Of a stretch of 44,975 nucleotides of DNA, positions 9,113 through 40,570 are shown one piece after another. The stretch comes from Phycisphaerales bacterium. GTDB lineage: Bacteria > Planctomycetota > Phycisphaerae > Phycisphaerales > SM1A02. A program made the translations under genes and the position numbers. The stretch spans positions 1 through 44,975 of the forward strand of contig JAKVBQ010000009.1 in NCBI GenBank assembly GCA_022447205.1. The letters run 5' to 3'. Below the pieces are notes generated by a model. It was not told the DNA's origin. It did no database searches and worked only from the letters and a program-made list of their open reading frames with translations. Within the stretch, counting starts at the first letter, position 1, and each line of letters begins with the position of its first letter.

Positions 9113-9115
9113 CCA

Positions 9116-9741: not shown

Positions 9742-10028
9742 AGACCAAGACCATCGAAATCCCGGAGAACTCTCCGCGCAAGACCGGACTGGTCGAGAGC
9801 GACAAGGGTGACAAGACCTGCAAGGTCGTCATCAACTTCCTCACGAAGCACCCGAAGTACGGAAAGTACATCCGTCGTCGGACCGTCCTTCAGGTGCATG
9901 ATGAGAACAACGAGTCCAGCGTCGGTGATCGCGTCGAGATCGCCGAGTGCAGGAGGATCTCCAAGACCAAGTCATGGATCCTCACCAAGATCGTCGAACG
10001 AGCCCCAGAAGGTGGCATGGACGCCTGA
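9738..10028 (+). CDS. rpsQ: 30S ribosomal protein S17
   Basis: 96 residues from a GTG start that overlaps the rpmC stop (GTGA). The OB-fold motifs are '[19 protein letters not shown]', '[20 protein letters not shown]' and '[21 protein letters not shown]'. S17 is a primary 16S rRNA binder. N- and C-terminal ends are a little longer than in E. coli. No alternative start fits the conserved region better. Confidence 0.95.
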
Positions 10029-10054
10029 GGCGTTCCTGAGAGCGAGAAGCAGCA

Positions 10055-10441
10055 ATGATTCAAAAAGAATCACGAATGGAAGTTGCCGACAACAGCGGCG
10101 CCAAGGTGGCCCAGGTCATCGGCGTGCTGGGCAAGAGCAGTGCACGAGGCCGTCACACCCGCCTTTCGATGGGCGTGGGTGAGAAGGTCGTCTGCACCGT
10201 CAAGAAGGCGCTTCCCAATTCCGACATCAAGACCGGCGAGAAGGTCCGCGCCGTGATCGTCCGGACCAAGTACCCCACTCGTCGCGAGGACGGCTCCTAC
10301 GTTCGTTTCGATTCGAACGCCTGCGTCATCATCGACGAGAACGGAAACCCAAAGGGCACCCGCATCTTCGGTGCGGTCGCCCGCGAACTGCGCGAGAAGA
10401 ACTTCATGAAGATCGTCTCGCTCGCAACGGAGGTGGTCTGA
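10055..10441 (+). CDS. rplN: 50S ribosomal protein L14
   Basis: 128 residues, a few more than the usual 122. '[17 protein letters not shown]', '[12 protein letters not shown]', '[20 protein letters not shown]', '[19 protein letters not shown]', '[18 protein letters not shown]' and '[17 protein letters not shown]' mark it clearly. L14 forms intersubunit bridge B8 and is the docking site of the silencing factor RsfS. The gene ends one base before rplX starts. Confidence 0.97.
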
Positions 10442-10442
10442 G

Positions 10443-10799
10443 ATGGCTGGCCATATCAAGACCGGTGACAACGTCTACGTGAACTCCGGCAACGACAAGG
10501 GCAAGGTCGGCGAGGTGCTTCAGATGCTTCCGAAGCACGACACCTGCATCGTCAAGGGCGTCAACGTCCGGACGAAGCATGTCAAGCCCAACCAGCAGAA
10601 CCAGCAGGGCGGGATCGTGCGTGTCGAGATGCCGATCCACGTCAGCAACGTCAGCCCCTGTGTCGGAGGCAAGCCCACCAGGGTGCGCTTCGAGACTCGC
10701 GATGACGGTTCCAAGGTCCGTGTCGCGGCACGGGACGGTTCAGATCTTCACGTCCTCCGCTCCGCGGGTTCGGGCGGCAAGAAGGCATCGAAGAAGTAA
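10443..10799 (+). CDS. rplX: 50S ribosomal protein L24
   Basis: 118 residues with the KOW motif '[21 protein letters not shown]' (given as [18 protein letters not shown]), '[23 protein letters not shown]' in part, '[10 protein letters not shown]' and '[17 protein letters not shown]'. L24 is one of the two assembly initiators of the large subunit. A short Ser/Gly/Lys tail follows the conserved part. Its ATG is separated from the rplN stop by one base. Confidence 0.95.
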
Positions 10800-10818
10800 G
10801 GCAGCGGGATAACGAATC

Positions 10819-11403
10819 ATGGTCTCTCAAACGACAAGTTCACAGCTCCGGCAGAAGTTCGACGACGAGGTCGCTGCGAGCGTTCGCGAGAAGTTCGGCA
10901 TCACGAACCTCAACGCCCAGCCGCGGCTCGAGAAGATCATCGTGAACGTCGGCATCGGCAAGGCTCTGGAGAACCAGAAGCTGAAGCCCGACGTGCGCGA
11001 CACGGTCATCTCCACGCTCACGACCATCACCGGCCAGAAGCCGATCATGGTCCTGGCGAAGAAGTCCGTCTCGAACTTCAAGGTTCGAGAAGGCGCGCCT
11101 TCCGCGTTCATGGTCACCCTCCGGCGTGATCGCATGTGGAACTTCCTCGATCGACTGATCAATCTCGCCACTCCCCGTATCAAGGACTTCCGCGGCGTGA
11201 GCCGCAAGTCCTTCGACAAGGGTGGCAACTACGGGATGGGTCTCACCGAGCAGGCGGTGTGGCCTGAAATCAACATGGCGTCCGTGTCCTACAACCACGG
11301 CATGAACATCAACCTCATCTTCCGCAACAGCAATCCTGAAATGAGCCTCTTCCTTCTCGAGGGCCTTGGCATGCCCTTCGCGAAGGTCGGCGGCGATCGC
11401 TGA
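10819..11403 (+). CDS. rplE: 50S ribosomal protein L5
   Basis: 194 residues, about 15 more than usual, the extra mostly at the N-terminus. '[18 protein letters not shown]', '[24 protein letters not shown]', read in parts, '[28 protein letters not shown]' in part, and '[19 protein letters not shown]' are conserved. L5 holds 5S rRNA and touches P-site tRNA. The ATG of 'MVSQTTSSQ' is the only reasonable start. Confidence 0.95.
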
Positions 11404-11435
11404 TCCGGAATTCCACTTTTCAACGAGACGAAACA

Positions 11436-11621
11436 ATGGCTAGCAAGAAGACATTCGCCAGGATGAAGCGTGAACCCAAGTTCTCCACTCGCAGGGAGAA
11501 CAGATGTGAGATCACCGGACGCAAGCGGGGCATCTACCGCAAGTTCCGCGTGAGCCGGATCATGCTTCGTGAGCTCGCGCTTCAGGGGATGGTCCCGGGA
11601 ATGCGCAAGGCGAGCTGGTGA
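11436..11621 (+). CDS. rpsN: 30S ribosomal protein S14, short form without the zinc site
   Basis: 61 residues, exactly the length of the zinc-binding short (type Z) S14, and the C-terminal '[17 protein letters not shown]' is the signature of that type. The four zinc ligands of type Z proteins stand at 24, 27, 40 and 43; here they are Cys24, Thr27, Ser40 and Met43, so only one remains and zinc cannot be bound in the usual way. Zinc-free S14 is normally the longer 90-100-residue form, so a short zinc-free one is unusual. The DNA around the changed codons is unambiguous. S14 binds late in the 30S head. The L36 gene in the same cluster shows the same kind of loss. Confidence 0.95.
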
Positions 11622-11673
11622 TTCTGAACGATTGGTCCTGCCCCGACTGGATCGGTGCAAGGAGTACACGACG

Positions 11674-12072
11674 ATGTCGATGAATGATTTGACTGCCGAC
11701 ATGCTCACGCGAATCCGCAACTCGGTCCGCAACAAGGCCAAGGATGTCACCGTGGTCAGCAACAAGCTGAACCGTGGTGTCGCCCAGGTCCTTGCCGACG
11801 AGGGGTACATCAACGGGTTCGACTGCATCGAGGATGGCCGGCAGGGTTTGATCAAGATTGAACTGAAGTATGGGCGTCGCGGTGAGCAACTCATCAACAC
11901 GCTTGATCGCGTCTCGAAGGGCGGCTGCCGTGTCTACTGCAGTGCCGACGATCTTCCCCGTCCCCTGCAGGGGCTGGGGATCGCGATCGTCTCCACGAGC
12001 AAGGGTGTATTGAGTGACCGTCGCTGCCGCGAGGAGCGTGTTGGCGGCGAGATCGTGGCAACCGTCTGCTGA
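11674..12072 (+). CDS. rpsH: 30S ribosomal protein S8
   Basis: 132 residues. The ATG at 'MSMNDLTADMLTRIRN' has AAGGAG nine bases upstream; the frame extends 35 codons further but into the rpsN region. Conserved parts: 'DMLTRIRNSVRNKAKDVTV', 'VLADEGYINGF', 'LINTLDRVSKGGCRVYCSADDLP' in part and the C-terminal 'GLGIAIVSTSKGVLSDRRC' plus 'VGGEIVATVC'. S8 folds the central 16S domain and represses the spc operon in E. coli. The C-terminal Cys residue and 'LSDRRC' replace the usual 'MTDREAR'. Confidence 0.95.
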   Translation: MSMNDLTADMLTRIRNSVRNKAKDVTVVSNKLNRGVAQVLADEGYINGFDCIEDGRQGLIKIELKYGRRGEQLINTLDRVSKGGCRVYCSADDLPRPLQGLGIAIVSTSKGVLSDRRCREERVGGEIVATVC

Positions 12073-12085
12073 ACCAGCGTAAAGA

Positions 12086-12106
12086 GCTCGCCCCTGATCG
12101 GCGAGC
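12086..12106 (+). promoter_or_regulatory. Stem-loop between rpsH and rplF
   Basis: GCTCGCC (12086-12092) pairs perfectly with GGCGAGC (12100-12106) around a seven-base loop. It fills the middle of the 50-base gap, with the rplF ribosome-binding region just after it. No T run follows, so it is not a terminator. Confidence 0.35.
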
Positions 12107-12122
12107 CAAAGAGGATTGAACG

Positions 12123-12680
12123 ATGTCTCGCATCGGCAAGAAACCAATCACAGTTCCCAGCGGGGTCACGGTCTCCATCGACCCGGCCAGCCGCTCCGTC
12201 AACATCGAAGGCTCGAAGGGCAAGCTTTCGCTCGTCCATCGTCCCGAGGTGGTCGTTGAATGGCATGCCGACGAGAAGTCGATCGAGTGTCGACTTGCCG
12301 AGGGCACCGCGCTCGACGGTTCGGGGAAGGCCTACTGGGGGCTCACTCGGTCCTTGATCAACAACATGGTCGAGGGCGTGACCAACGGGTACACCAAGAA
12401 GCTCGAGATCGTCGGTGTCGGCTACGGCGCGAAGGTCGCCGGTCCCAAGATCACCCTGAAGCTCGGTTTCGCCAACGAGATCGTGTTCCAGATTCCCGCC
12501 GGCGTCGAATGCTCGGTGGAGCGTGACGTCGTGACGGTCACCGGTGTCGACAAGCAGAAGGTCGGCGAGCTCGCCGCCAAGATCAGGAACTCCAGGAAGC
12601 CGGAACCCTACAACGGCAAGGGCGTGCGGTACCTCGGTGAGGACATTCGCAGGAAGCAGGGCAAGGCATTCGGCGCCTAA
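12123..12680 (+). CDS. rplF: 50S ribosomal protein L6
   Basis: 185 residues in two similar halves as expected. 'MSRIGKKPITVPSGVTV', 'VNIEGSKGKLSL', 'GLTRSLINNMVEGVTNGYTKKLEIVGVGY' (in part), 'LKLGFANEIVFQIPAGVE' and 'GKGVRYLGEDIRRKQGKAFGA' are all present. L6 lies near the GTPase centre of the large subunit. A ribosome-binding AGAGGA stands seven bases before the ATG. Confidence 0.97.
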   Translation: MSRIGKKPITVPSGVTVSIDPASRSVNIEGSKGKLSLVHRPEVVVEWHADEKSIECRLAEGTALDGSGKAYWGLTRSLINNMVEGVTNGYTKKLEIVGVGYGAKVAGPKITLKLGFANEIVFQIPAGVECSVERDVVTVTGVDKQKVGELAAKIRNSRKPEPYNGKGVRYLGEDIRRKQGKAFGA

Positions 12681-27966: not shown

Positions 27967-28650
27967 TCAGTTGCGGCGGCGTCTGCGGCCGGAGGCGAGT
28001 GCCATCAGGGTGGCGAGGCCGCCTGCGCCCGGAACGGCCGCTCCGGCGGCGGCATATTCGACCGCCACGTCCCAGCAGACCATCGAGCCGTTGTCCGTCA
28101 GGGTGTTGCTTCCCGACATGGAGAACACCAGCTGGTAGGCGGTGTCCTTCTCGAGATCATAGCTGTCGGCCATGTCGTTCAGGCTGCCGATGAGGTTCTC
28201 GTTCGACCCGTACAGTTCCACCGACCAGGAGGCGACGCTCGAGAGTGCCTCGAGATTGGAGATCAAGCCGAGGGAGATGGACGCGTCGTGATCGAGGCTG
28301 AACATCGTCGAAGTGGTTCCGACCGCGCTCATTCCGAGCAGGTCCGAATGCATGTTGAGGTTGCACCAGTCGAATCGGATGATGTCGACGTTGTCCTCGA
28401 TGCTTGAACACTCGTCGGAGGCCGAGATGCAGGCCTGGTAGTCGTCACCGATGTGTGCGTGGATGCATTCCGCATAGGCGGATGCCGGGTCGAATTCCAG
28501 CGTGCAGTCGTGGGTCAGGGTGTAGAAGGACACCTTGGCATCAAGGCAATGCGTCCTCATCGCATGGGGGTCGAGGCCCTCCGCGACAACCTGCCCCGCG
28601 ATCACGAGGCAGCACGACGCTGCGAAAAGTGTCCTCTTCGTTGAGGTCAT
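27967..28650 (-). CDS. Secreted protein with PEP-CTERM-like tail
   Basis: 227 residues. Signal peptide 'TLFAASCCLVIAGQVVAEG' at the N-terminus. The mature region has eight or so cysteines ('HCLDAK', 'HDCTLEF', 'ECIHAH', 'ACISASDECSS', 'DWCNLNM') likely forming disulfides outside the cytoplasm, then a beta-rich part. The C-terminus 'AAVPGAGGLATLMALASGRRRRRN' is a degenerate version of the 'VPAPGALALLGLGGL' sorting tail of the other secreted protein in this window. Function unknown. It is transcribed toward nrdR with a 64-base gap and has no clear promoter. Confidence 0.75.
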   Translation of the reverse strand: MTSTKRTLFAASCCLVIAGQVVAEGLDPHAMRTHCLDAKVSFYTLTHDCTLEFDPASAYAECIHAHIGDDYQACISASDECSSIEDNVDIIRFDWCNLNMHSDLLGMSAVGTTSTMFSLDHDASISLGLISNLEALSSVASWSVELYGSNENLIGSLNDMADSYDLEKDTAYQLVFSMSGSNTLTDNGSMVCWDVAVEYAAAGAAVPGAGGLATLMALASGRRRRRN

Positions 28651-29423: not shown

Positions 29424-30161
29424 TCAGACGGTCGTGTGCTGGTCGGGAAGCACCAGGGTTCCGATTCCCGGTGTTCCCTCGACGACCCTGCGGATGTTGC
29501 CCTGTTTCTTGAAGTCGAACACGCAGATCGGGAGCTTGTGCTCCATGCACATGGTCATCGCGGTGAGATCCATCACGCCGAGCTGCCGGTCCAGGACCTC
29601 ACTGAAGTTCAGGTTGTCGTACCGGACCGCGTCCGGGACCTTGTGAGGATCGGCATCGTAGATGCCGTCGACCTTGGTCGCCTTGAGCAGGATGTCCGCT
29701 CCGAGTTCGATCGCCCGGAGGGAGGCGCAGGTGTCGGTGGTGAAGAAGGGGTTCCCGGTGCCTGCGACGAGGATCACGATGCGTCCCTTCTCGAAGTGGC
29801 GCATCGCCCTTGCGCGGATGAACGGTTCCGCGACGGAGGTCAGGTTGATCGCACTCATGACCCGTGCGGCCTGGTTCCTGCTCTCGAGGGCCTCCTTCAG
29901 GGCAAGCCCGTTGATCACCGTGCCGAGCATGCCCATGTAGTCCGATGCGGATTGATCGAAGGACGTGGATTCGGCAAGCTTCGCTCCCCTGATGATGTTG
30001 CCTCCGCCCACCACGACGGCGATGTCCGCACCCGTCTCCCTCGCGGAGGCGATCTCATCCGCGATCAGCATGAGTTCGTCCGGATGGATGCCGAGTTCAC
30101 CTTCCCCGGCGAAGCTTTCTCCGCTGATCTTCAGGACGACTCTCTTGTAGGGCTGGCTCAT
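29424..30161 (-). CDS. pyrH: UMP kinase
   Basis: 245 residues of the amino acid kinase fold. 'YKRVVLKISGESFAGEGELG', 'DIAVVVGGGNIIRGAKLAE', 'DYMGMLGTVINGLALKEAL', 'VILVAGTGNPFFTTDTCASLRA' in parts, 'LLKATKVDGIYDADP' and the C-terminal 'MDLTAMTMCMEHKLPICVFDF' (in part) are characteristic. It makes UDP from UMP and ATP, the bacterial hexameric type. frr follows on the same strand. It diverges from the VWA/ExbBD operon across about 150 bases. Confidence 0.97.
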   Translation of the reverse strand: MSQPYKRVVLKISGESFAGEGELGIHPDELMLIADEIASARETGADIAVVVGGGNIIRGAKLAESTSFDQSASDYMGMLGTVINGLALKEALESRNQAARVMSAINLTSVAEPFIRARAMRHFEKGRIVILVAGTGNPFFTTDTCASLRAIELGADILLKATKVDGIYDADPHKVPDAVRYDNLNFSEVLDRQLGVMDLTAMTMCMEHKLPICVFDFKKQGNIRRVVEGTPGIGTLVLPDQHTTV

Positions 30162-30276
30162 CTGGCGGCTCCTGGTCGGGGCTCCGGGGCGTGCCCGGCG
30201 GGGGTATCCCCCAATTGGAACCGGGAACCGAGCTTCCGGTCAAGCTGGGCGGTTTTCGCGGTTGATTATTTCGGCG

Positions 30277-30282
30277 TAGAAT
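30277..30282 (+). promoter_or_regulatory. Possible -10 element of the VWA/ExbBD operon
   Basis: TAGAAT, five of six bases of TATAAT, lies 30 bases before the first ATG of the operon in the divergent gap to pyrH. The -35 side is poor (TTTTCG 18 bases upstream), so only the -10 is suggested. Confidence 0.3.
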
Positions 30283-30312
30283 CCATATTCCAGCCCGAAT
30301 CCCGGCTCCTAC

Positions 30313-31344
30313 ATGCGTAGTTGTCTACTGAACGTGATCTACAGCGATTCGAATCCAGGTCCCGAGGTCGGCTCCCGAAACCTCGCCGCGTCGGATGAGC
30401 TTCGGCGCACTATCGGCATGCTCGTCGAGGAGAGGCGTCGTCTCCGACGCCAGAGGGTCACCAACCTGATCCTGATCGGATTCGCGATCTCGATCCCGTT
30501 TCACCTCGCCATCATCATCTACCTCGCCAGCGTCCGGATGGCCGCTCCCCAGGGAGCTGGTCCCGAGGAAATGGTGGTGGAATTCGCAGTTCTCTCCGAG
30601 TCGGAGCTCGAGGATCTCGGCGAGCAGGATGAGCTCGAGGCGCTCGACACGCCGGAGGTCGAGGAGCTCTCGACCTTCTCCGAGTCGCTGTCGGAGGATC
30701 TTGACACCGCAGCCGTCGCGATGGCCGTCTCCACCGATCTCAGCGGAGCGGTGCCGACCCCCGGCGGCGGCGCCGGGCTGGGTCAGTCCGATGCGGTCGG
30801 CGGGGGGCTTGCGGGCGGGGCATCCTTCTTCGGCGTCAGCAGTCGAGGCCGTCGTTTCGCCTACATCGTCGACGTCTCCGGCTCCATGAACAGCAACGAC
30901 AAGTTCCCGATCGCGATGGCCGAATTGAAGCGATCGATCAAGGCGCTTCCCGACTACGCCTCGTTCGTCGTCCTCCTCTACTCGAACATCCTCCGGGCAC
31001 CACCGATGCAGACCGACTGGTTCCGTGCCAATGCCACCAGTGTCTCTCGAGTGAGTCGGTGGATCGACACCGTCGAGACCGGCGGCGGCACGCTGCCCTA
31101 TCCCGCCTTTGCCGAGGTCTTCAAGCTCGAGGAACGCCCCGACGTGATCTTCTTCCTCACCGACGGGATCATTCCCGAGGACACCCCGGAACAGGTGGTC
31201 GATCTCAACTCGCAGGGGCGATCCGTCGTGGTCAACACGATCTCCTTCGGTCAGGACGCTTCCCGTGAGCCGCTCCAGAGGATGGCGGACGAGAGCGACG
31301 GGGTCTATCGACACGTCGACGCGGGAAGGAGGGGGCAGCCATGA
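30313..31344 (+). CDS. Membrane-anchored VWA-domain protein with TonB-like N-terminal helix
   Basis: 343 residues. Residues 1-50 are basic and probably cytoplasmic ('EERRRLRRQRVT'), 51-73 form one membrane helix ('NLILIGFAISIPFHLAIIIY'), 85-130 are a strongly acidic linker, 145-170 are Gly-rich and 180-335 a VWA domain. Its metal-binding MIDAS is complete: Asp187, Ser189, Ser191 (DVSGS), Thr260 (GGGT) and Asp284 (LTDG). In the helix Ser60 and His64 make S-x3-H, the spacing of Ser16/His20 in TonB, which is essential there for coupling to ExbB-ExbD. ExbB- and ExbD-type genes follow in the same operon. I infer a PMF-energised protein with TonB topology whose working end is a VWA domain. There is no clear ribosome-binding site. 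Confidence 0.85.
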   Translation: MRSCLLNVIYSDSNPGPEVGSRNLAASDELRRTIGMLVEERRRLRRQRVTNLILIGFAISIPFHLAIIIYLASVRMAAPQGAGPEEMVVEFAVLSESELEDLGEQDELEALDTPEVEELSTFSESLSEDLDTAAVAMAVSTDLSGAVPTPGGGAGLGQSDAVGGGLAGGASFFGVSSRGRRFAYIVDVSGSMNSNDKFPIAMAELKRSIKALPDYASFVVLLYSNILRAPPMQTDWFRANATSVSRVSRWIDTVETGGGTLPYPAFAEVFKLEERPDVIFFLTDGIIPEDTPEQVVDLNSQGRSVVVNTISFGQDASREPLQRMADESDGVYRHVDAGRRGQP

Positions 31345-32489
31345 CCATGTTCCACACCGATCGCCCCCGCCGGGCGCTGCACCATGCGCTGAATGCCGCG
31401 CTCATGGCGGGCTGGTTCCAGATGACATCCGTCGTCTCGGCTGAAACGATCCACCTGCGTGGAGGCGATGACTCGATCGAATCCACGACGTTCGATCTCA
31501 GGGACGACGGGATTCACCTCCTGGCGTCGGGCTCGGAGACCGGTGAAGTCTCACGGGTGATTCCATGGGACATGGTCCGCGAGATCGATGGGATCAGTGC
31601 TCCGTCGATCCGGGATGCCTGGGAGAAGTACCGCCCGGTGGCCCTGGAGCTCTGGCGGGCACGGTCCCGCCTCCAGCGTGGAGACGCCCGGCTTGCGGAG
31701 CTGCTCTTCGAACGGCATTTCGAGCAACTCGCCGGAGGCGACGCGGCATCCGAACTTGACCTGATCATCGCGGAAGGTCTTCTTCGCGTTCGCCTGGCCC
31801 GTGGTGCGGTCGAGGAGGCACTCGCACCCGCTCTCGAGACGATTCGATTGCGACGAGCGGGTATCAGCACCGATCGTTACGACGAACTCCCGGACGTGAT
31901 CGATGAGCAACTCTGGCTGGTTCCGGAACTCCCCCCGATCCGCACCGACCTGCGGATGATCGATCTGCTGCCCGATCTGCTGCGGCCCTGGAGCGAATCC
32001 GAGGACCCTCATGTCCGGGCGCTTGCCGAAGGGTACGCAGGTCCAACGGACACGCTTCTCGTGGAGGATGCAGGCACCGGGGTCCTTCTCCTCGCCGCCG
32101 CGCGTGAGGCGATCGCCATCGACCCGGTGGTGCGACAAAAAGGGCGTGCTCAACTCTCGAGCCTGGCCACGATGCAGGATGCTCCTCCCTGGGTCGATGC
32201 CTGGAGTCGCTGGTTCACCGCACGGTCACTGTCCCTTGAATCAGATGCGGATGTCGATGACATCCTGATCGAGCTCCTGCACATCCCCGCACGACATGCG
32301 AGCCGCTGTCCTGCGCTCGCCTCTCGTGCGATCATCCACGCCACCGAGATCCTGGACGAGGCCGGACGTTTCCCTGAAGCGAACATGCTGCGACGGGAAC
32401 TTCTTGTTTCGCATGCAAGTGTCGTGCCTGCCATACATCCAGACCCTGTCACACATGATGGTCCTACAGACGGATCGGAGACTCCATGA
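31341..32489 (+). CDS. Exported protein of unknown function in the VWA/ExbBD operon
   Basis: 382 residues; start overlaps the VWA stop (ATGA). The N-terminus is hydrophobic ('ALNAALMAGWFQMTSVVSAE') and cleaves plausibly after VSA. Residues 37-85 are beta-rich ('STTFDLRDDGIHLLASGS', 'SRVIPWDMVREIDGI'), the remainder alpha-helical with Leu/Ala/Arg-rich repeats suggesting a TPR-like solenoid. I do not recognise the family. Its place between the VWA and ExbB genes points to a periplasmic partner of that complex. Confidence 0.75.
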   Translation: MTMFHTDRPRRALHHALNAALMAGWFQMTSVVSAETIHLRGGDDSIESTTFDLRDDGIHLLASGSETGEVSRVIPWDMVREIDGISAPSIRDAWEKYRPVALELWRARSRLQRGDARLAELLFERHFEQLAGGDAASELDLIIAEGLLRVRLARGAVEEALAPALETIRLRRAGISTDRYDELPDVIDEQLWLVPELPPIRTDLRMIDLLPDLLRPWSESEDPHVRALAEGYAGPTDTLLVEDAGTGVLLLAAAREAIAIDPVVRQKGRAQLSSLATMQDAPPWVDAWSRWFTARSLSLESDADVDDILIELLHIPARHASRCPALASRAIIHATEILDEAGRFPEANMLRRELLVSHASVVPAIHPDPVTHDGPTDGSETP

Positions 32490-33226
32490 CGACGTTGATT
32501 CCCGCCCTTCTGGGCGCGGCTGATTCACAGGCCGGCTCGACCCTCCTCAAGTTCATCACCGGAGGGGGCTTGATCGGGTACATGATCATCCTCCTGTCGA
32601 TCGTCGGTCTCGTGCTCGTGGTGATCCACGCCTTCCAGATCCGCCGAAGCGAACTGGTGCCACCGGAGCAGTCCGTCGCCCTCCGGGAGCTCCTCTCTTC
32701 CGGACGAGCCGAGGAGGCGCTGCAGTTCTGCATCCAGCCGGCCAACGACACGTTCCTGACCAGGGTGCTGGCCCCCGGGCTCACGCGTTTTCTCAAATCG
32801 CCCTTCGGAGCCTTCGAGATCAAGACCGCCCTCGAGGATGCCGGGGCCGAGCAGACCGAACGGCTCTACCGTTCGACGGACGCTCTCGGGGTGATCGGCT
32901 CGATCGCTCCCCTGATGGGGCTGCTGGGCACCGTCTGGGGCATGATCGGCGCGTTCGACACCGTGTCCGCTGGTGCGGTCAGTGACGCCGCCTACTACGA
33001 GCAGCTGGCCGCGAACATCAGTCTCGCGCTGGTCACCACGATGCAGGGGCTGGTGGTCGCGATTCCTTGCGTGATCCTCTACTCCTTCTTCCGCAATCGC
33101 ATCGATGCGATCGCCGCCGATGCCGGAGGAGAGCTCGATCAGCTGGCGATGCTCCTGGAATCAGCGCAGGCATCTCGCGGCGACAAGAGGGCGGCTCCCT
33201 CCGCTCCCCAGGGTGCGGCTCGATGA
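32486..33226 (+). CDS. MotA/TolQ/ExbB family proton channel protein
   Basis: 246 residues, three membrane helices: about 29-50 ('LIGYMIILLSIVGLVLVVIH'), 134-157 ('LGVIGSIAPLMGLLGTVWGM') and 178-201 ('SLALVTTMQGLVVAIPCVIL'). The signature 'GSIAPLMGLLGTVWGMI.AF' and Thr149 plus Thr184/185 correspond to the conserved polar residues lining the ExbB/TolQ pore. With ExbD-type partners such proteins turn proton flow into movement of a third protein. The start overlaps the previous stop (ATGA); the stop overlaps the next start. Whether it is nearer ExbB or TolQ cannot be decided by eye. Confidence 0.93.
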   Translation: MTTLIPALLGAADSQAGSTLLKFITGGGLIGYMIILLSIVGLVLVVIHAFQIRRSELVPPEQSVALRELLSSGRAEEALQFCIQPANDTFLTRVLAPGLTRFLKSPFGAFEIKTALEDAGAEQTERLYRSTDALGVIGSIAPLMGLLGTVWGMIGAFDTVSAGAVSDAAYYEQLAANISLALVTTMQGLVVAIPCVILYSFFRNRIDAIAADAGGELDQLAMLLESAQASRGDKRAAPSAPQGAAR

Positions 33227-33654
33227 AGTTCGCCAGGTCGGGTTCGCGCCCGAAATCCATGCTCCTCGACATGACACCGATGATCGACATCGTGTTCCTG
33301 CTGTTGATCTTCTTCCTGACCACCGCCCAGCTCGCACGCGAGTCACGTGCCGAACTCGACCTGCCCGAGGAGCGGGGTGAACAGCGGGAGGACGTGGAAC
33401 GAGCCGGTCTGATCATCAGCGTGCTCGCCACCGGTGAGCTGATGCAGGGGGATCGCGTCATCACGGTCCCCGAGCTCGAGGAGATCGCGATCGCCCAGGT
33501 GGTGGGGGGGCGCGACGAGAACGGTCGCCTGGTCCGGCCGCTGGTGCGAGCCGATCGCAACGCGCCCGCTGAACGATTGAACGAGGTCTTCAACGCCCTG
33601 CGTCGTGCCGGGACGGGTTCGGCCCGGCTCGCGACCAGTGCGCCACGAAGGTGA
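33223..33654 (+). CDS. ExbD/TolR family protein, first copy
   Basis: 143 residues; ATG overlaps the ExbB-type stop. The start is set here, since upstream in-frame residues belong to the previous gene in another frame. One helix near the N-terminus reads 'MTPMIDIVFLLLIFFLTT'; Asp22 is the proton-carrying residue equivalent to ExbD Asp25. The periplasmic part ('AGLIISVLATGELMQGDRVI', 'LVRPLVRADRNAPAERLNEV') has the beta-alpha pattern of ExbD. It would form the dimer inside the channel pentamer. Confidence 0.93.
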   Translation: MKFARSGSRPKSMLLDMTPMIDIVFLLLIFFLTTAQLARESRAELDLPEERGEQREDVERAGLIISVLATGELMQGDRVITVPELEEIAIAQVVGGRDENGRLVRPLVRADRNAPAERLNEVFNALRRAGTGSARLATSAPRR

Positions 33655-33688
33655 ACCACAGACGAACGCATCGTCCGGAGCAGACCGC

Positions 33689-34120
33689 TTGCGCATCAAG
33701 GCAAAGACAAATCGACGCCGCAATGAACGCCTGACCCTGAACATGGCGAGCATGATCGACTGCACCTTCCTGTTGCTCGCCTATTTCCTGCTGACGATGG
33801 TCGTGGTCCAGCCCGAGGATCAGCTCGCCCCGAACCTGCGTGCGGATCGAACGGCCGCATCAGGTGCTTCCAGTGACTTCCAGCCCCAGATCGTCGATGT
33901 CCAGCTTCGGGAATCGGGTCCGGTCTTCCTGCTCGGAGACCGGGTCTTCCAGGATCGTGATGCACTGACCGCTGCGCTGGTTGATCTTCCGAAGGAGACC
34001 GGTCTGTTCGTGCGGGTTCACCCGGGTCCCACCGTCGGTGCCGCGGCTGCGGCCATGCAGGCCGGCCGTGATGCCGGGTTCGAGACCGTGACGTACGTGC
34101 CCGCGGGATCGGGAGGGTGA
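33689..34120 (+). CDS. ExbD/TolR family protein, second copy
   Basis: 143 residues if begun at TTG 33689, nine bases after GGAG; no ATG fits before the helix and the GTG upstream lies inside the first ExbD gene. With this start both ExbD proteins have the same length. The helix is 'NMASMIDCTFLLLAYFLLT': Asp24 is kept, but the usual Thr-Pro before it is Ala-Ser and a Cys follows. The periplasmic part ends 'AAAMQAGRDAGFETVTYVP', the typical ExbD C-terminus. Two unlike ExbD genes after one ExbB suggest a heterodimer in the channel. The stop overlaps the next gene's GTGATG. Confidence 0.85.
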   Translation: MRIKAKTNRRRNERLTLNMASMIDCTFLLLAYFLLTMVVVQPEDQLAPNLRADRTAASGASSDFQPQIVDVQLRESGPVFLLGDRVFQDRDALTAALVDLPKETGLFVRVHPGPTVGAAAAAMQAGRDAGFETVTYVPAGSGG

Positions 34121-36693
34121 TGGTCGACGTGCGACATGTCATGGCACAACTCATCGCCTTGCTGCTCTTCGCCACGACCGCGAACGGCCAGGAAGTCGTG
34201 GCGACCTGGCTCGAGGAGACCGGACTGCAACGCCTCCATGCTCGTGAGCTCGAGCGACTGCTTGGGGAGACTGCCAACCAGGAGACACGTGCCCGGATCG
34301 CGCTCTCTCTTGCCGGACTCTACGCGGAGCTTCTCCAGTCGACTCCTGCGGGGGCACAGCGGAAGGTGCTTGAGGATCGTGCGCGCCTGCTTCTTGACAA
34401 GATCGAGGAGACCGCGGGCGATCCGCTTCGCCTCACACTGCTTCGTTCCCGCTATGCGCTCGCTTCCGGGAGCTGCGAGCGGATCCGACTCGCCCTCGAC
34501 ATCGAGGGAACGAGGCAGGCCCTGGTGGAAGAGCTCGCCGAGATCGCGCAGGAACTCCTGGAGGTCGGCGAACGACTCGAGCGCAGCGAGCGGGCGCTTG
34601 AGCGCAGGATCAACCGGACCGGCGGCATGCGTGCCCAGGCGCTGGGCGCACGTTCCGATGGGATCGGCATGCGGATCGCCCAGTCCACCTACCTCCAGGC
34701 GTGGGCACGCGCCTACCTGGGATGGCTGACGGATGACCGGGCGGAGGCGATCAAGGCCCAGAAGCTCTTCGGCCTGATCCTTTCGACCGGGGATTCATTT
34801 CCGTCTCCCACCGATATCTCGAAGGATCTCCGTCGAAACGAGATCTATGCGGAATCGATCCTTGGCATGGCCTTCGCGAAGAGCGTGACGGATTCCCTCG
34901 CCACCGTCCGCACCTGGATCGATCTCCTGGACTCCTCCGAGACCTCGGGCTACGTCCGCGACTCTCTTCCGTACTGGAGACTTCTCCTGTATTCGGAGGC
35001 AGGAGCACATGAGGACGCGCTCGACCTGCTTCGCAAGCTGCCTGATGAGGCACCGGTCAGCTGGCTTCGCCTCGCCGCAGTTCGTGGCCTTGGTGCCGAG
35101 GTCCCAGACAGTGCGACCCGCTCGCTCGGTACCGAGGCGATCGCAATCCTCGCATCTCGCGGCGAACTGGCCCAGGTCGTCGATCTTGCGGAACGCTTCA
35201 ATCTCTCCGGCATGGATCAGGGGGGCTTCGCCCTGCAGTATGTGAACGGCGTCTGTCATTACCAGGATGCCCAAGCTGCCGTCGAGGCGGGTCGTGACAC
35301 CGAGTCGCTTCGTGACTATCGATCCGCACTCGACGATCTCGAGTCCGCGCTCCTTGAGGCGGACTCGGAGGACTTCCCCGAGGCGGTCCCCGGTGCGATC
35401 GCGATGCGGGCGTGGTGTCTTCACAAGCTCGGGAGGTTCCCGGAGGCGTCCTTCGCCTTCGAGGCGGCGGCGGAGCGTCATGCCGGTGTCGATGCGGGGA
35501 ACTACCTCTGGATGGCGCTCGAGAGTCTCGACCCCGTCAAGGCCCGAACAGTGGGAGGACGATCGACCGTTGAGCGCAGGGCGGAGCTGATCACCCGCTT
35601 CCTCAACGATCATCCCGCGCATCCGAACGCGCCCAATGCACTGCTCAGGCAGTTCGCTTCGATCAGCGATCCCAGCCTGGAGGATGCCGAGACCCTTGTC
35701 ATGGTGCCGACCGGGACGGCGAACGGGAATCGGGCGTACCAGCAGGGGCTCCAGCTGCTCTATCGCATCTTTCGACGTGGTGATGCCGATGAACGAATCA
35801 AGGCGGGTGAACGTTTCCTCGAACTGGTCCCGATCCCCCGGTTTACATGGGACATGGATGATTCGGAGCGGCTTCATGCCGTTCTGCGTGTCCGTCAATT
35901 GCTGGACATCTCCCTTGCTTCCGTGATCGCACGGACCGAGATCGCACGTGCTGCGCTTGACGCGATCGACCAGGCCGTCGATGCGGGTGTCATCGACCTG
36001 ACGGAGAATGAGCGGGAGATCATCTACCGACGACTGATGCTTGCCCTGCTCGAGGGTCGTCCGGAGGATGCGCTGTACCACTTCGGCCTGCTGGAGAACG
36101 ATTCCGACGACTGGACCAGGGTGGCCGCACGCAGCCTCTACAACGCGGCACGCGTGGTGCTCGTCGATCCAGATCTTCCACTGGAGGACTTCCGCACCCA
36201 GTACGGCATCGATGGTGTCCGGCGGGCGGCCGGTTTCCTGCTTGGGGAGGACCCGGAGACAGCGGACTTCACCGACGACTCGACTTTCAGGATCGGTCGT
36301 GCCCTGGCTCTTGCGGAACGGATGGCATACGAATCGAGTGGAGATCAGCAGGGGCTCGATCGAGCCTACGCGCTCTTCACCATTCTGAACGGCGCACGTC
36401 CTCGCGACGAAGGAGTGCTCGAGGGGCTTGCATGGTCCGCCGAGATGCTTGGTGACGATGATGCCGCTCTTGCGGCACTGCGCACCCTGGTGTCGGGCAC
36501 TGCGATCGGGACCGAGCGCTGGTTCCGTCGGAAGCATGAACTGGTTCGCGTCCTCGCCCGAACGGATCCTGCGCGTGCCCGAGACGTGCTCGAACAGCAT
36601 GTCGTGCTGCATCCGGACTACGGACCGGCGCCCTGGGGCGAACGACTGTCCGCCTTGCACGCGGAACTCGGCAGGGAAGGGGGCGTTCGATGA
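34117..36693 (+). CDS. Large exported helical-repeat protein of unknown function
   Basis: 858 residues; the start overlaps the ExbD stop (GTGATG, two possible starts one codon apart). Signal peptide 'VMAQLIALLLFATTANGQE'. The rest is nearly all helical, with many Ala/Leu/Arg-rich pairs of helices and TPR-like units such as 'FPEASFAFEAAAERHAGVDA', 'RALALAERMAYES' and 'DDDAALAALRTLVSG'. A long alpha-solenoid in the periplasm is the likely shape, often a protein-binding scaffold. I recognise no enzymatic motif. It ends ATGA-overlapped with the next gene. Confidence 0.75.
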   Translation: MMVDVRHVMAQLIALLLFATTANGQEVVATWLEETGLQRLHARELERLLGETANQETRARIALSLAGLYAELLQSTPAGAQRKVLEDRARLLLDKIEETAGDPLRLTLLRSRYALASGSCERIRLALDIEGTRQALVEELAEIAQELLEVGERLERSERALERRINRTGGMRAQALGARSDGIGMRIAQSTYLQAWARAYLGWLTDDRAEAIKAQKLFGLILSTGDSFPSPTDISKDLRRNEIYAESILGMAFAKSVTDSLATVRTWIDLLDSSETSGYVRDSLPYWRLLLYSEAGAHEDALDLLRKLPDEAPVSWLRLAAVRGLGAEVPDSATRSLGTEAIAILASRGELAQVVDLAERFNLSGMDQGGFALQYVNGVCHYQDAQAAVEAGRDTESLRDYRSALDDLESALLEADSEDFPEAVPGAIAMRAWCLHKLGRFPEASFAFEAAAERHAGVDAGNYLWMALESLDPVKARTVGGRSTVERRAELITRFLNDHPAHPNAPNALLRQFASISDPSLEDAETLVMVPTGTANGNRAYQQGLQLLYRIFRRGDADERIKAGERFLELVPIPRFTWDMDDSERLHAVLRVRQLLDISLASVIARTEIARAALDAIDQAVDAGVIDLTENEREIIYRRLMLALLEGRPEDALYHFGLLENDSDDWTRVAARSLYNAARVVLVDPDLPLEDFRTQYGIDGVRRAAGFLLGEDPETADFTDDSTFRIGRALALAERMAYESSGDQQGLDRAYALFTILNGARPRDEGVLEGLAWSAEMLGDDDAALAALRTLVSGTAIGTERWFRRKHELVRVLARTDPARARDVLEQHVVLHPDYGPAPWGERLSALHAELGREGGVR

Positions 36694-39600
36694 GTCACCC
36701 TCCCTTGCGTCGCTTTCTCGGGCTCGATGAGAACTCGAGCGATCATGCACTCCTGGGGCTCCAGCCCGACGAATGTGGTGATCGGGAGCGTGTCGCACAG
36801 GCGCTTGCCGACCGTCTTGATCGTCTTGAGCGGCATCCGTCCGGCCGGAGTGCGGATGCGATGACCGTCCGCCAGTGTCTCGGCGCGGCGGCTGCCCGAC
36901 TCATTGGTGACCTCGACGTCGTACCCGTCCAACAGGCACCGCCCAGGTCACCAGCCGCGATCGTTCCCGACGGTGCCATCTCGCTCGATGAACAGGATGA
37001 GGTGGCGCGTGAGCCCGAACCACCCCCACGGATCGAACATGCGGTTCCGGTGTCGTCGACCGATCAGGGTGGACAACCCCCGGCCACGAAGGAACCCACC
37101 AGGCCCGATGACGCGTCGGTCGCGACGCTCAACGACTTCGACCGAACGGTGTTGGCGATCCTGGTTGGTTCGGGTGGGTGGAATGCGGAGAGTCGCGGTC
37201 GCCTCATCGAACTTGCTTCTCGACGTGGGCTCAAGCCCGCAGGCTTGATGAGAATCGTCAACGGTCTCTCGCACCTGTTGCAGGGGGGAGGCTTTGAGGG
37301 TGTCGCAGGTGCCCCACGTGCGATCGATGTGGCGTTGCCGCCGGCCAAGGTGGCACGGCCCCCGACGAAGATGGAAGTCCGCATGAACCAGATCTCGGAG
37401 GTTCTGGCCAGCGAGATGCGTGGGGACACGGCTGGATCGAGGCTTCGACTGGGGATCCTGTTCTCGGTGATCGGCATCGTCCTGAGCGGTCTCTTCATGG
37501 CATTGCTCATGCTGCCGTCGCCTGCAATCGAGGCGGCACGCAGGAAGGCTGCGGAAGCGGCTGCTCGCGAGGAACTGCTCGCTGCTTCAAACGATGCCTC
37601 CGTTGATTCGGCACCGGTGATTTCAGGTGGATTCATGCCTGATGATTCCGGCGTCGAGGAATTCACGGTGCAGCCCGTCATCTGGGAGCGACCACCGACC
37701 TTCCGTGGTGATTCCCGCCCGACTCGAGCGATCCTCAGGTCCCACGATGCGCCGGAGTGGATCAAGGGTCTCGAGACGATCGCACGGAAGTCATCGTTGC
37801 CACGTCCTGCAGGTGGCTCGAGGATCTTCATCGACTACACGGCATACCTTGATGACGCCGCAAGCTGCTGGCCGTTGCTCGAGCCCGGTCTCCGAGGCCA
37901 GCTCCTCGTGGCCCTCGCCGAGCCTGCGGCGGTCGGCGTCACGCTCGAGGTTCGTGAGCAGTTCCTCGACCTGATCGATGCCGGTTTCGTCACCTTGAAC
38001 AAGCCCGAGGACGTCTGGAAGTCGGCCTGGTCCGCTGGGCTGCTGGCCGGCATCATCGCCGACCCGCTTCAGCCGGAAGGCGTCCGTTCCCTTGCCACCC
38101 TCCGTCTGAACGAGGAGCTTGGAAGTCGTCGCCGTGTTCGTGGTGAGGGGGAAAGTCCGTTCCAGCTCGCCACGGGAAGGAAGTTGGATCGCATGGTTCC
38201 GGAGCTCGTGCAGCTCGCGGTGATCGAACATCCCGACGTGCTCGATGCGTGGGAGTACTGGATCCAGGCCCAGAAGGCCGTTCGAACCGGATTGCTTGCC
38301 GAGACCGCCTGGTTGGAGGCCGCGCTCGTCATCCTCGAGGAGGGGTATGCGCTCGAACGACCGGGTGCGCTCACCGAGATTCTTGGCCGCCTGCTCTCGG
38401 AGCTCGACCTCACGACCCGTTCGCTCGATCCTGATCTCGTGCGTTCGAATCTCCGTTCATGGTTCGAATCCCCTGAGATCCCGTCCGACAATCTCTGGGT
38501 CCTGACCAGCATCCTGGCGCGTTCAGCCGATGTGCCTTGGTGGGATGCCCGTCACGTCCTCGATCCTGCCGCAACGGTGCCGGAGCGGCGGGCATTCATG
38601 GATCGGGTCGAGATGATCTGGCCGGAGCGACTGCCGACCGAACGTCCTCGGGGAATTCCCGTTCCTGGTGAGCTCCTCGACCGCATCGATCGAGTTCGTC
38701 ACGACTTGCACACCGATCTTCGCCGTGGCGACCGGATCGAAATGCTGCATCGCCTTGTCGCCTGCAGTCGCCTCGCTGCCACCGTCGAATTGTTCGAGCA
38801 GGGAGAGCGCTTGCTCGGTCTGGAAGAACTCGGTCGCGCGGAGGAGCTTGCCGGGACCGACGTCGAGCGGATGCTTCATCCGGAGTTCATCACGGAATCC
38901 GTCGGCGTCTCGCGGGATCGAGACGGGCTCTGGGCAGCTCAATGGAAGGATGCAAGACGAGGGGAACGCGAGCCGATTCTTCGCCAGCTCAAGCAAAGGA
39001 GTGGAGGGGACCTTGGTCCCGTCGATGCGGCTGCCCTGGCGGCCGAGGCCTATCGAGGCCAGGGCATGGACATCCTGCTCCTGGCGAGGAAGATGATCAC
39101 CGATCAGTTCCCCTACGGTCCCAACATGGCCCTTGCACTCCTCGATGAGTTCGGTCAGGCGTCGAGGAACGCTGAGACGAACGACTTCCTCTTCAGCCTC
39201 GGGGTGCTTGATCTGCCGACCGTGACCGATCCGAACTGGCATGCCAAGGTTCGTCTCGCGCTCGCACGCCATGCCTTCGCTCTGCAGGAATCCACACTGC
39301 ATGACATCGATCGGCTTGTGGAGGATCATGCGGATGTCCTTCGGAAGCGCTTCGATCAACTTGGTGGCGAGGCCTACCTTCGTGATTCAACACCGGAGGA
39401 GGTCGCCAGTGCCTTGGCTGGGCTGATGGACAGGCGCGCTCGCGATCGTTTCGTGTCCGATCCGATCCCCGCCGATCTCGAGGAGCTTCGCCGACGCCGT
39501 TCGGTCCGTTGGGCATCCGCCGTCACCAGCGCACAGCAGCTCGTGGCCGAGCTCACCTCGATCGCCGACATCGCCTTCTACGAGACGGCGAGTCTTCGCC

Positions 39601-39755
39601 CCGACCTTCGGAAGGCACTCATGGAGGAGCACATGGAACTGACGACACGGGTCTCTGCCGCACCGGACGTGCTTCACCAGCTGCTCGAACTCGAGCTTGC
39701 GCTCGTCGATCTCGTCCTCCTCCGACTGGAACCCGAGGAGGACGTCCTCCAATGA
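36690..39755 (+). CDS. 1021-residue single-pass membrane protein of unknown function
   Basis: The N-terminal 75 residues ('LRRFLGLDENSSDHALLGLQ', 'LGAAAARLIGDLD') look like the short helical module often placed at the front of planctomycete proteins that starts with 'FLGL' or 'LLGL'; it is somewhat J-domain-like without HPD. Residues 75-145 are Pro-rich; 145-215 a helical domain; about 251-273 one membrane helix ('LGILFSVIGIVLSGLFMALL'). Some 740 residues follow that should be periplasmic, mostly helical. It overlaps its neighbours by four bases on both sides and so is certainly translated with the ExbBD-type genes. No family recognised. Confidence 0.75.
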   Translation: MSHPPLRRFLGLDENSSDHALLGLQPDECGDRERVAQALADRLDRLERHPSGRSADAMTVRQCLGAAAARLIGDLDVVPVQQAPPRSPAAIVPDGAISLDEQDEVAREPEPPPRIEHAVPVSSTDQGGQPPATKEPTRPDDASVATLNDFDRTVLAILVGSGGWNAESRGRLIELASRRGLKPAGLMRIVNGLSHLLQGGGFEGVAGAPRAIDVALPPAKVARPPTKMEVRMNQISEVLASEMRGDTAGSRLRLGILFSVIGIVLSGLFMALLMLPSPAIEAARRKAAEAAAREELLAASNDASVDSAPVISGGFMPDDSGVEEFTVQPVIWERPPTFRGDSRPTRAILRSHDAPEWIKGLETIARKSSLPRPAGGSRIFIDYTAYLDDAASCWPLLEPGLRGQLLVALAEPAAVGVTLEVREQFLDLIDAGFVTLNKPEDVWKSAWSAGLLAGIIADPLQPEGVRSLATLRLNEELGSRRRVRGEGESPFQLATGRKLDRMVPELVQLAVIEHPDVLDAWEYWIQAQKAVRTGLLAETAWLEAALVILEEGYALERPGALTEILGRLLSELDLTTRSLDPDLVRSNLRSWFESPEIPSDNLWVLTSILARSADVPWWDARHVLDPAATVPERRAFMDRVEMIWPERLPTERPRGIPVPGELLDRIDRVRHDLHTDLRRGDRIEMLHRLVACSRLAATVELFEQGERLLGLEELGRAEELAGTDVERMLHPEFITESVGVSRDRDGLWAAQWKDARRGEREPILRQLKQRSGGDLGPVDAAALAAEAYRGQGMDILLLARKMITDQFPYGPNMALALLDEFGQASRNAETNDFLFSLGVLDLPTVTDPNWHAKVRLALARHAFALQESTLHDIDRLVEDHADVLRKRFDQLGGEAYLRDSTPEEVASALAGLMDRRARDRFVSDPIPADLEELRRRRSVRWASAVTSAQQLVAELTSIADIAFYETASLRPDLRKALMEEHMELTTRVSAAPDVLHQLLELELALVDLVLLRLEPEEDVLQ

Positions 39756-40570
39756 TTCGTGTCATGCACAGATCCCGAATCCTGCTCTTCGCCTGTTCGA
39801 TCCTGCTTCCGGCGGGCTTGTCGGGATCGATGGATCCCTCGATGTCCGACACCACCGCACCGGTCGACTGGACCGAGCGACTGGAGGCTCTGGAGCCTGC
39901 CCGTGCCCTGGAGTACTTCGAACTCGCGGAGGAGGTCTCCGAAACCGCTTCCAGCGTGGAGGAGCGGGAGCTCGCACGACAGCTCTTCGGGCTTGCGGGA
40001 CTCCTCGACGAGAAGCTCAGCTGCAGTGCGGCTCTCGCGATCGCGGACATGCCCGGCATGGAGCAGCGGAGGAACGTGCAGGAGCGGTTGCGTGCCGCTG
40101 CCGAGCTCCTCGCACCTTCCGGGACCATTGTCCTTGGTGCCAGCCGGAAGAGTGGGATCTCCGAACAGGATCGGATCATGCTCTGCAGGGCGCTCGGCAT
40201 GCTGCGACGAGGGGATGGCTACCGTGCCGGCAGGGCGTTCGAGGAACAGGGCGTCGTCGATGCGCTCGAGGAGGTGGGTTTCCTCTTCAACGGTGGAGCC
40301 AATCGGGTTCGCGAGGACTGCTCGATCTACAGGGGAGGGCTTCGCCCCGATCTTTCCGCCGAGGGGATCAGGTCGCACCTGATCGCGGAGATCATCACCC
40401 TGGCACCCGGCAATCCGGGGTGGGGGATCGAACTCCTTCGTTCCGACGCCGCACCACTGACGGTCGTCGATCTTGAACGGCTTGACCTGCTTTTCGGAGT
40501 CGATCCCGCCCGCCCCTACTGGCGGGGCGGTGCCTGGGTGGGCGCGCAGGACGCCCGTCGAGGCTACTGA
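39752..40570 (+). CDS. Exported protein of unknown function, last gene of the VWA/ExbBD operon
   Basis: 272 residues from the ATG overlapping the previous stop; the longer open frame upstream is the shadow of the preceding gene. Signal peptide 'SRILLFACSILLPAGLSGS'. The mature part is helical ('LEPARALEYFELAEEVSETA', 'ERELARQLFGLAGLLDEKL') and then has 'LLAPSGTIVLGASRKSG' and 'DLLFGVDPARPYWRGGAWVG'. No family recognised. It converges on the cystathionine gamma-lyase gene with 17 bases between stops and no clear terminator. Confidence 0.7.
   Translation: MIRVMHRSRILLFACSILLPAGLSGSMDPSMSDTTAPVDWTERLEALEPARALEYFELAEEVSETASSVEERELARQLFGLAGLLDEKLSCSAALAIADMPGMEQRRNVQERLRAAAELLAPSGTIVLGASRKSGISEQDRIMLCRALGMLRRGDGYRAGRAFEEQGVVDALEEVGFLFNGGANRVREDCSIYRGGLRPDLSAEGIRSHLIAEIITLAPGNPGWGIELLRSDAAPLTVVDLERLDLLFGVDPARPYWRGGAWVGAQDARRGY

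Follow-up and report, generated by a model that had tools for sequence, protein, structure and literature searches.

What does a proton motor of the ExbB/TolQ type move when it is encoded beside a von Willebrand factor A (VWA) protein and not beside TonB or TolA? The question is raised by a cassette of eight plus-strand open reading frames (ORFs) that fill positions 30313-40570 of contig JAKVBQ010000009.1 from a Phycisphaerales bacterium (GCA_022447205.1; genome of 3.25 Mb in 86 contigs, 95% complete), in the order VWA, P2, ExbB, ExbD1, ExbD2, TPR858, BIG1021 (hereafter BIG) and P8; the whole 44,975-nucleotide stretch that was analysed is termed the window. As far as we are aware, the envelope machines of the ExbBD/TolQR type whose jobs are known comprise only Ton, Tol and a few motility motors. 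We consider it probable that the cassette is a proton-motive-force-driven trans-envelope machine in which the VWA protein acts as the force transducer.

The initial annotation had proposed the VWA protein as the partner moved by the motor, and three features of the sequence favour that proposal: Ser60-x3-His64, a motor-box-like strand and linkage to the ExbB-ExbD-ExbD genes. The motif lies in the sole membrane helix of the protein, GFAISIPFHLAIIIYLAS, and the strand VVEFAV follows that helix at residues 88-93; the N-terminus is probably cytosolic. A VWA domain spans residues ~180-335, with its metal-ion-dependent adhesion site (MIDAS) intact. Alignment of 13 VWA homologues revealed that S60, H64, D187, S189, S191, T260 and D284 are invariant, and we take Asp187, Ser189, Ser191, Thr260 and Asp284 to be the MIDAS residues. 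Across 74 VWAs (73 from cassettes plus one from the related locus L049), DxSxS is present in all 74 and Ser-x3-His occurs at the most hydrophobic segment of 71, versus 14 of 366 membrane or signal segments taken as controls from the partner proteins (P2 2/56, ExbD1 6/66, ExbD2 1/66, TPR 5/52, BIG 0/71 and P8 0/55, with sub-threshold proteins omitted: 17 P2, 0 ExbD1, 0 ExbD2, 22 TPR, 2 BIG and 16 P8). Published structures show the Ser and His of the TonB/TolA motif in contact with membrane helix 1 of ExbB/TolQ (PMC12905483), and AlphaFold 3 (AF3) models put vWA transducers at the site that TonB and TolA use (PMC12204202). Because the helix bears Ser-x3-His, the signature of motor docking in TonB and TolA, we read the VWA protein as the moved partner.

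The motif is also associated with a neighbouring motor gene. With ExbB counted as linked if it lay within 6 kb on the same strand, 131 VWA genes divided into 104 with both motif and ExbB, 13 with the motif only, 6 with ExbB only and 8 with neither (Fisher p = 1.9e-4). Since this set includes loci fetched through an ExbB match, which favours linkage, we recounted without them: the 62 VWA genes of loci found by VWA match only gave 43, 8, 3 and 8 in the same order (p = 4e-4), and the 50 of these that lie outside cassettes gave 34, 5, 3 and 8 (p = 3e-4), all three p values being uncorrected for kinship. The motif-only VWAs comprise those of eight motorless cassettes and of L168, L177, L190, L199 and L202, of which L177 and L190 sit close to contig ends. 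Among the six ExbB-only VWAs, two have SLLLH or SLGLH just beyond the scored segment, two have AxxxH and one TxxxH; the sixth, from L179, shows none of these forms.

The presumptive motor subunits are recognisable by family and by residue. Pfam matched the VWA protein to VWA_3 (4.2e-13), ExbB to MotA_ExbB (E value in the table) and the two ExbDs to ExbD (7.8e-23 and 1.3e-11). The residues named for ExbB/TolQ are a pore Thr, a Ser in the first transmembrane helix (TM1), a Pro in TM3 and a Trp beside the TM1 Ser (PMC12905483). Ser38, Thr149, Thr185 and Pro194 are invariant among eight aligned ExbB rows, and in our reading Thr149 and Thr185 correspond to the pore Thr, Ser38 to the TM1 Ser and Pro194 to the TM3 Pro. 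Asp22 (ExbD1 numbering) is invariant in 15 of 15 ExbD rows, with both window ExbDs keeping the Asp; an Asp pattern matched 64 of 65 ExbD1 and 61 of 65 ExbD2 rows, and its five misses still show an Asp. Judged by family membership and these kept residues, ExbB and the ExbD1-ExbD2 pair would form a proton motor of the inner membrane.

The arrangement recurs widely among related genomes. ORFs called by length included many antisense ORFs in GC-rich DNA, and we therefore used codon-usage scoring and six-frame profile scans. A search of 150 genomes of the class with the VWA protein gave matches in 140, many of them to other VWA proteins. Among 17 foreign loci read from these matches, L038, L039 and L042-L047 have all eight genes in order; L040 and L102 (at the end of a second contig in the L040 genome) are probably two halves of one cassette; L041, L048 and L050 are cassettes without the three motor genes; L049 and L051 are shorter VWA-ExbB-ExbD variants; and L052, L053 and L054 are other VWA loci. 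At E <= 0.001, a profile of the TPR protein had matches in 131 of the 201 genomes searched from the order; these were strong in many members of families f1, f2, f5 and f25 and only marginal in f3 and f4, and 16 f1 genomes are listed without a match. Across the phylum it matched 58 of 294 genomes, and outside the order it was full-length only in G441 and G519 (family f89).

From these matches, 60 full-length TPR loci were chosen by hand for contig room and spread of genera. The comparison of gene order across Planctomycetes that the initial annotation had suggested bore the operon out: the eight genes keep an identical order in 55 of the 60 loci, and the motor trio is absent from the other five, one of which (L116) lies on a contig that stops inside BIG. 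A few loci (for example L113, L124, L125, L130 and L131) have a partial or weak match to BIG. Because the loci were picked by their TPR gene, 55/60 describes gene order given that gene and not the frequency of the cassette; with so many further loci retaining all genes in order, the arrangement is not a chance one. Together with the window and the earlier loci, the total comes to 73 cassettes, 8 of them without the motor trio. A further set of 80 loci, partly repeating contigs, contained 18 with all eight genes and 8 with VWA-P2-TPR but no trio, the rest being contig-end cuts, loci with a weak member missed, or other VWA genes. Of 73 loci, 67 have a divergent pyrH <= 2.5 kb from the VWA gene, a count that excludes the window and includes L049, which is not a cassette of the window's type. 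Named contigs with cassette relatives come mostly from metagenome genomes labelled Phycisphaerales or Planctomycetota. One contig titled Chitinophaga pinensis (L216) has a planctomycete-type VWA-P2 pair and is perhaps mislabelled or part of a mixed metagenome genome.

Several observations weigh against a VWA transducer driven by this motor. Kinship may inflate the linkage of motif and ExbB, as the Fisher tests take no account of it, and the TM1 Trp named for ExbB/TolQ (PMC12905483) is not among the invariant residues of the eight ExbB rows. The remainder of the SHLS motif is weak: Leu occurs at His+7 in 35 and Ser at His+11 in 5 of 117 VWAs, and the window VWA has Leu71 at His+7 and Arg75 at His+11, so that the second Ser of SHLS is missing; full SHLS is reported for 'many of' the SHLS-helix family members and hence does not strictly define them (PMC12204202). 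The motor-box consensus, VEFAVMTxAELxxL, stands out clearly in family f2 but varies in the others, among them the family of the window; a profile of it, which only 51 of 65 training rows entered, scored >= 11 in 33 of 35 motor-bearing f2 rows and from -14 to 29 in the remaining 30 motor-bearing rows. An outer-membrane target is not encoded in the cassette. Finally, 8 of the 73 cassettes have no linked motor genes, and four of the genomes concerned (G221, G318, G113 and G090) have no trio of the cassette type, their best ExbB scoring 127-149 bits against a cassette-type ExbB profile, the level of a paralogue.

The motorless cassettes are informative about the relation between motor and transducer. 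The initial annotation had counted against its own reading any conserved neighbourhood in which the VWA gene is not linked to the ExbBD pair; such neighbourhoods exist, but they qualify the reading and do not refute it, because in half of the eight genomes the trio is located elsewhere and Ser-x3-His is retained in the VWA helix of all eight. In G102, G261, G209 and G245 the ExbB profile found unlinked matches of 235-329 bits (G102 is among its eight rows, and a profile made without it still scores the G102 ExbB at 240 bits). These belong to stand-alone ExbB-ExbD1-ExbD2 trios (L089, L167, L165 and L166, respectively), with no VWA gene within the 9-12 kb read. On a tree of the TPR proteins (73 rows), a minimum of 5 changes between the motor-bearing and motorless states is required.

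In at least one genus the motor appears to have been replaced. In a tree of 61 cassette trios and the four stand-alone trios, concatenated over 522 columns (L046, L128 and L156 were left out as near copies or to save rows, and L040 as incomplete), the stand-alone trios group together as a single clade (support 99) nested in the f2 motors (100); G102 and G261 belong to f1. A tree of ExbB only likewise unites the four stand-alone motors (97). Constraining the G102 and G261 motors to f1 was rejected (log-likelihood 177 lower, approximately unbiased test p = 2.5e-9), as was constraining their TPR proteins to f2 (log-likelihood 90 lower, p = 0.005). The genus of G102 and G261 thus has a native-looking cassette and a foreign-looking motor, and it therefore seems to have undergone a motor swap, for which horizontal transfer is the simplest route. 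The trees were built quickly from fast-evolving proteins, their groups were named after the tree was seen and long-branch attraction is possible; the genomes are draft assemblies with 1-2% listed contamination, and the two separate genomes of the genus agree.

Motor-box scores offer a lead on the cassettes whose genomes have no trio. The four no-trio rows score <= 1.1 versus a median of 24.6 for the 35 motor-bearing f2 rows (Mann-Whitney p = 2e-4, uncorrected for kinship), the four coming from two lineages; the motor-bearing f2 rows L137 and L144 also score low, and the rows with the trio elsewhere score 3.2, -2.1, 8.0 and 30.7. For the cassettes as a whole, we hold in even balance the extended proposal of a five-gene envelope machine with an exchangeable proton motor, replaced in at least one genus from the lineage of another family, with other cassettes motor-less, altered in their motor box and probably borrowing a paralogous motor. 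One candidate donor motor for motorless cassettes is L086 of G090 (7173-11778, minus strand), whose ExbB- and ExbD-type genes have a KDO-transferase gene and one like AIR synthase nearby but no VWA match; gene sizes are similar in L088 of G113.

The same loci bear on an alternative in which the VWA protein is not moved at all but is a regulator or assembly factor, the ExbB-ExbD motor serving TPR858 or BIG directly. VWA-TPR proteins of the Bat/MoxR type are thought to be regulators or assembly factors, VWA and TPR being frequent partners there, and it fits this alternative that the five non-motor genes stay together without the motor in the motorless cassettes. It does not account for the retention of Ser-x3-His in VWA helices even where the trio is unlinked, nor for the absence of the motif from 8 of 21 VWAs without a nearby ExbB versus 6 of 110 with one, and Pfam matched neither MoxR nor DUF58 anywhere in the cassette; we regard this alternative as improbable.

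We return to the preferred reading, of a VWA transducer with dedicated partners, to consider the remaining four proteins. Pfam matched TPR weakly in TPR858, whose profile also matches designed TPR proteins in the PDB. For P2, BIG and P8 a known family was sought and rejected: none has a Pfam match above cut-off, nor an NCBIfam or PDB sequence match worth naming, with one P2 homologue matching TPR_12 at 1.2e-5. An AlphaFold2 model of P2 (mean pLDDT 87.9, 29 sequences) shows a signal-like helix, a six-strand beta domain (35-83) and a TPR-like helical solenoid. Most of its PDB neighbours are solenoids of TPR or other helical repeats, and none reaches Foldseek E <= 0.001; VIA-align likewise returned TPR and similar solenoids (Z up to 12.0, root-mean-square deviation 3.2-10.6 A), a level common for helical repeats. 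Two CxxC pairs resembling a zinc ribbon occur in 12 of 23 aligned P8 rows; the window P8 is without them. P2 and TPR858 are apparently fused in the motorless cassette L041 of G102 (8768-12286, minus strand; 1172-aa ORF).

The model of BIG (mean pLDDT 78.5, pTM 0.43, 25 sequences) comprises two small helical domains, the confidently modelled N-terminal one (1-76) and another at 149-198, a membrane helix around 248-274 and, over residues 345-1021, a long repeat domain of alpha-helices; the ~245 residues preceding the membrane helix are probably cytosolic. In the first domain an HP loop joins two long helices, a J-domain-like arrangement by eye only, with the Asp of HPD absent. Foldseek searches with the model returned generic helical-repeat solenoids only, none at E <= 0.001. 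The two large proteins had been seen as a periplasmic scaffold; exported helical-repeat partners agree with that part of the claim, but BIG, with its membrane helix, probably spans the inner membrane. We also considered whether loss of the cytosolic BIG domain tracks loss of the motor and, on comparing motorless with motor-bearing loci, rejected it: the domain is absent from the L041, L048 and L050 ORFs as used, but the link was dropped because the motorless L143, L146, L152 and L164 retain it wholly or largely and the motor-bearing L042 lacks its first part.

Exported TPR proteins beside a motor also recall the Agl-Glt/Nfs core, of which the cassette might be a planctomycete member or near cousin, its motor moving exported TPR proteins, surface polymers or adhesins. 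The Agl-Glt genes of Myxococcus xanthus are aglR, aglQ and aglS (one TolQ-type, two TolR-type), gltC, gltD, gltE and gltG; GltD, GltE and GltC are exported TPR proteins, GltG is bitopic with a cytosolic domain and carries FHA and TonB domains, and the core complex is also conserved where gliding is undocumented (PMC3169522). One TolQ-type, two TolR-type, exported TPR and bitopic proteins make this parts list much like the cassette's. The likeness is one of parts list, and TPR composition is easily convergent; a Pfam search of all eight cassette proteins matched neither of the GltG domains (FHA and TonB_C). We know of no gliding by these bacteria, which also counts against this reading, and we think it unlikely.

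An ordinary TonB- or Tol-type system whose transducer end went unrecognised is a far poorer prospect, largely refuted by the absence of its clients. In NCBIfam, ExbB is indeed closest to the TolQ model and ExbD1 to the TolR model, but with scores far too low for the curated cut-offs (74.8 bits against 221 for ExbB and 45.7 against 127.3 for ExbD1), and the transducer ends in a VWA domain. As the initial annotation had stated for the operon, Pfam and NCBIfam revealed no TonB, TolA, TolB, Pal or receptor gene among the eight proteins, to which the negative for TolB and Pal is confined, the remaining genome not having been searched for either. Over the whole genome, 95% complete, there is no TonB_C match and no TonB-dependent receptor barrel match, in searches by which each family matches in 3 of 14 control genomes. 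A Zorya-like anti-phage system, in which a MotA/MotB-type motor of the same superfamily works with large accessory effectors, was rejected as scarcely credible, given that no PADLOC model matched any of the eight proteins at E <= 0.5, that Pfam gave no nuclease or helicase match in the cassette and that the recurrent divergent pyrH is unlike a defence island.

In the machine that we propose, the single VWA helix would dock on ExbB through Ser60 and His64 in the manner of TonB/TolA, the strand directly after it would be the motor box, and a linker of ~70-80 residues would supply reach. The metal-site VWA domain would grip a partner, either periplasmic or at the outer membrane. As dedicated partners, mostly helical repeats, it would have P2, TPR858 and P8 together with the portion of BIG that lies in the periplasm, and BIG would connect these to the cytosol. 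Gene content and order, the residues, the linkage and trees implying a motor replacement are observed, whereas docking, force and complex formation are what we infer for these proteins as a set, in which the five non-motor genes would be the stable core and the motor trio an exchangeable module, relocatable or replaceable. By analogy with Agl-Glt, the purpose may be the handling of a surface or outer-envelope component.

All eight ORFs are in place as first described, joined by overlaps except between the two ExbD genes. Coordinates give 4-base overlaps at six of the seven junctions (VWA/P2, P2/ExbB, ExbB/ExbD1, ExbD2/TPR858, TPR858/BIG and BIG/P8); at the seventh a short gap follows the ExbD1 stop. 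There is no ATG near the start of ExbD2, for which the TTG listed in the table, with GGAG upstream, is the most plausible start codon. The VWA start codon is uncertain, the ATG at 30313 having no clear ribosome site.

Features of the cassette and its upstream space in the window.
Feature	Position	Strand	Evidence
VWA protein, 343 aa, one membrane helix, C-terminal VWA domain	30313..31344	+	Pfam, alignment of 13 homologues
P2, 382 aa, signal-like N-terminal helix, beta domain, TPR-like solenoid	31341..32489	+	AlphaFold2 model
ExbB/TolQ-type motor subunit, 246 aa	32486..33226	+	MotA_ExbB 6e-28
ExbD1, 143 aa, Asp22	33223..33654	+	Pfam ExbD, alignment
ExbD2, differs from ExbD1, conserved Asp kept	33689..34120	+	Pfam ExbD, alignment; TTG start
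TPR858, exported TPR solenoid	34117..36693	+	weak Pfam TPR; PDB profile matches
BIG1021, bitopic, helical N-terminal domains, long alpha-helical repeat	36690..39755	+	AlphaFold2 model
P8, 272 aa, exported, outside known families	39752..40570	+	ORF, homologue alignment
Intergenic space, divergent pyrH / VWA gene	30162..30312	.	ORF coordinates

Upstream, the minus-strand gene at 29424-30161, divergent from the cassette, is presumably pyrH, with what we take to be frr behind it; on its 3' side the cassette converges on a gene that we take to be of the cystathionine type. Elsewhere in the window (27967-28650, minus strand), a 227-aa protein ends in VPGAGGLATLMALASGRRRRRN, a C-terminus that presumably resembles a PEP-CTERM-type sorting signal.

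A VWA-tipped transducer has so far been a computational proposal; the cassette supplies a conserved list of parts for it, which includes four partners in addition to the motor, in a genome without a TonB or TonB-receptor match. The natural experiments in which the motor was lost, moved or replaced predict residues that must match between motor and transducer. Parts list and natural experiments together therefore make the VWA-transducer proposal directly testable. In the open literature we found no paper linking Phycisphaerae with ExbD and TolQ, and none joining TolQ, a VWA domain, TonB and a gene cluster.

How, then, does the cassette compare with systems already described? The initial annotation had suggested that it would be a separate kind of energised system and that similar clusters might already be known; the system is not supported as new, as vWA force transducers had already been proposed by Williams-Jones et al. 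(2025, Mol Biol Evol 42:msaf138; PMC12204202), whose accessible text offers AF3 models and no phenotype. From the Planctomycetes-Verrucomicrobia-Chlamydiae (PVC) group, Planctomycetes included, they describe vWA proteins that have an SHLS helix followed by a motor box in a disordered linker and that are encoded next to tolQ, a pair of tolR genes and a TPR gene. The cassette shares with these the Ser-x3-His helix, the vWA end and the tolQ-like, two tolR-like and TPR genes, and possibly the motor box in the linker; unlike their clusters, it places the VWA gene first, upstream of the motor, and adds P2, BIG and P8 as kept members, where the accessible part of that paper names only the TPR gene as an extra (PMC12204202). 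Motorless cassettes and a replaced stand-alone motor, found here, are not mentioned in that part, relative to which the conserved extra partners, the steady chromosomal place and the modularity of the motor are new (PMC12204202). The TPH-vWA/TolQ pairs of the same paper also join a TolQ-like protein to a membrane-tethered vWA, but have no ExbD and carry an Asp in the vWA helix, whereas the cassette has ExbDs, Ser-x3-His and no helix Asp (PMC12204202).

Two further motor loci lie in the window's own genome. L035 (contig C3:33000-47000; 4618-9877, minus strand) is a second, paralogous VWA-ExbB-ExbD-ExbD-803-aa locus, beside a DoxX-like gene; its VWA helix has Ser-x3-His, and its layout is closer to the clusters of Williams-Jones et al. 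than the cassette's is. L036 (contig C17; 6391-10081, plus strand) is a different kind of operon with a motor gene. No ExbD match accompanies its ExbB/TolQ-type gene in the locus, and 4-base overlaps join that gene to genes for a protein of 453 aa with a weak likeness to a type II secretion G protein and for a protein with FHA and SpoIIE-phosphatase domains.

With TonB-ExbB-ExbD and TolA-TolQ-TolR the cassette shares the ExbB/TolQ family, the ExbD/TolR Asp and the Ser-x3-His docking helix, and it differs in its VWA end, its two different ExbDs and the absence from the cassette of a TonB C-terminal domain, receptor, TolB and Pal; it would resemble the Ton and Tol transducer systems in its working and is neither Ton nor Tol itself. 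The Agl-Glt transducer is GltG, with FHA and TonB domains (PMC3169522), whereas that of the cassette carries a VWA domain, and BIG a domain that is J-like by eye. By analogy of parts, the Agl-Glt core complex is the nearest working analogue of the cassette.

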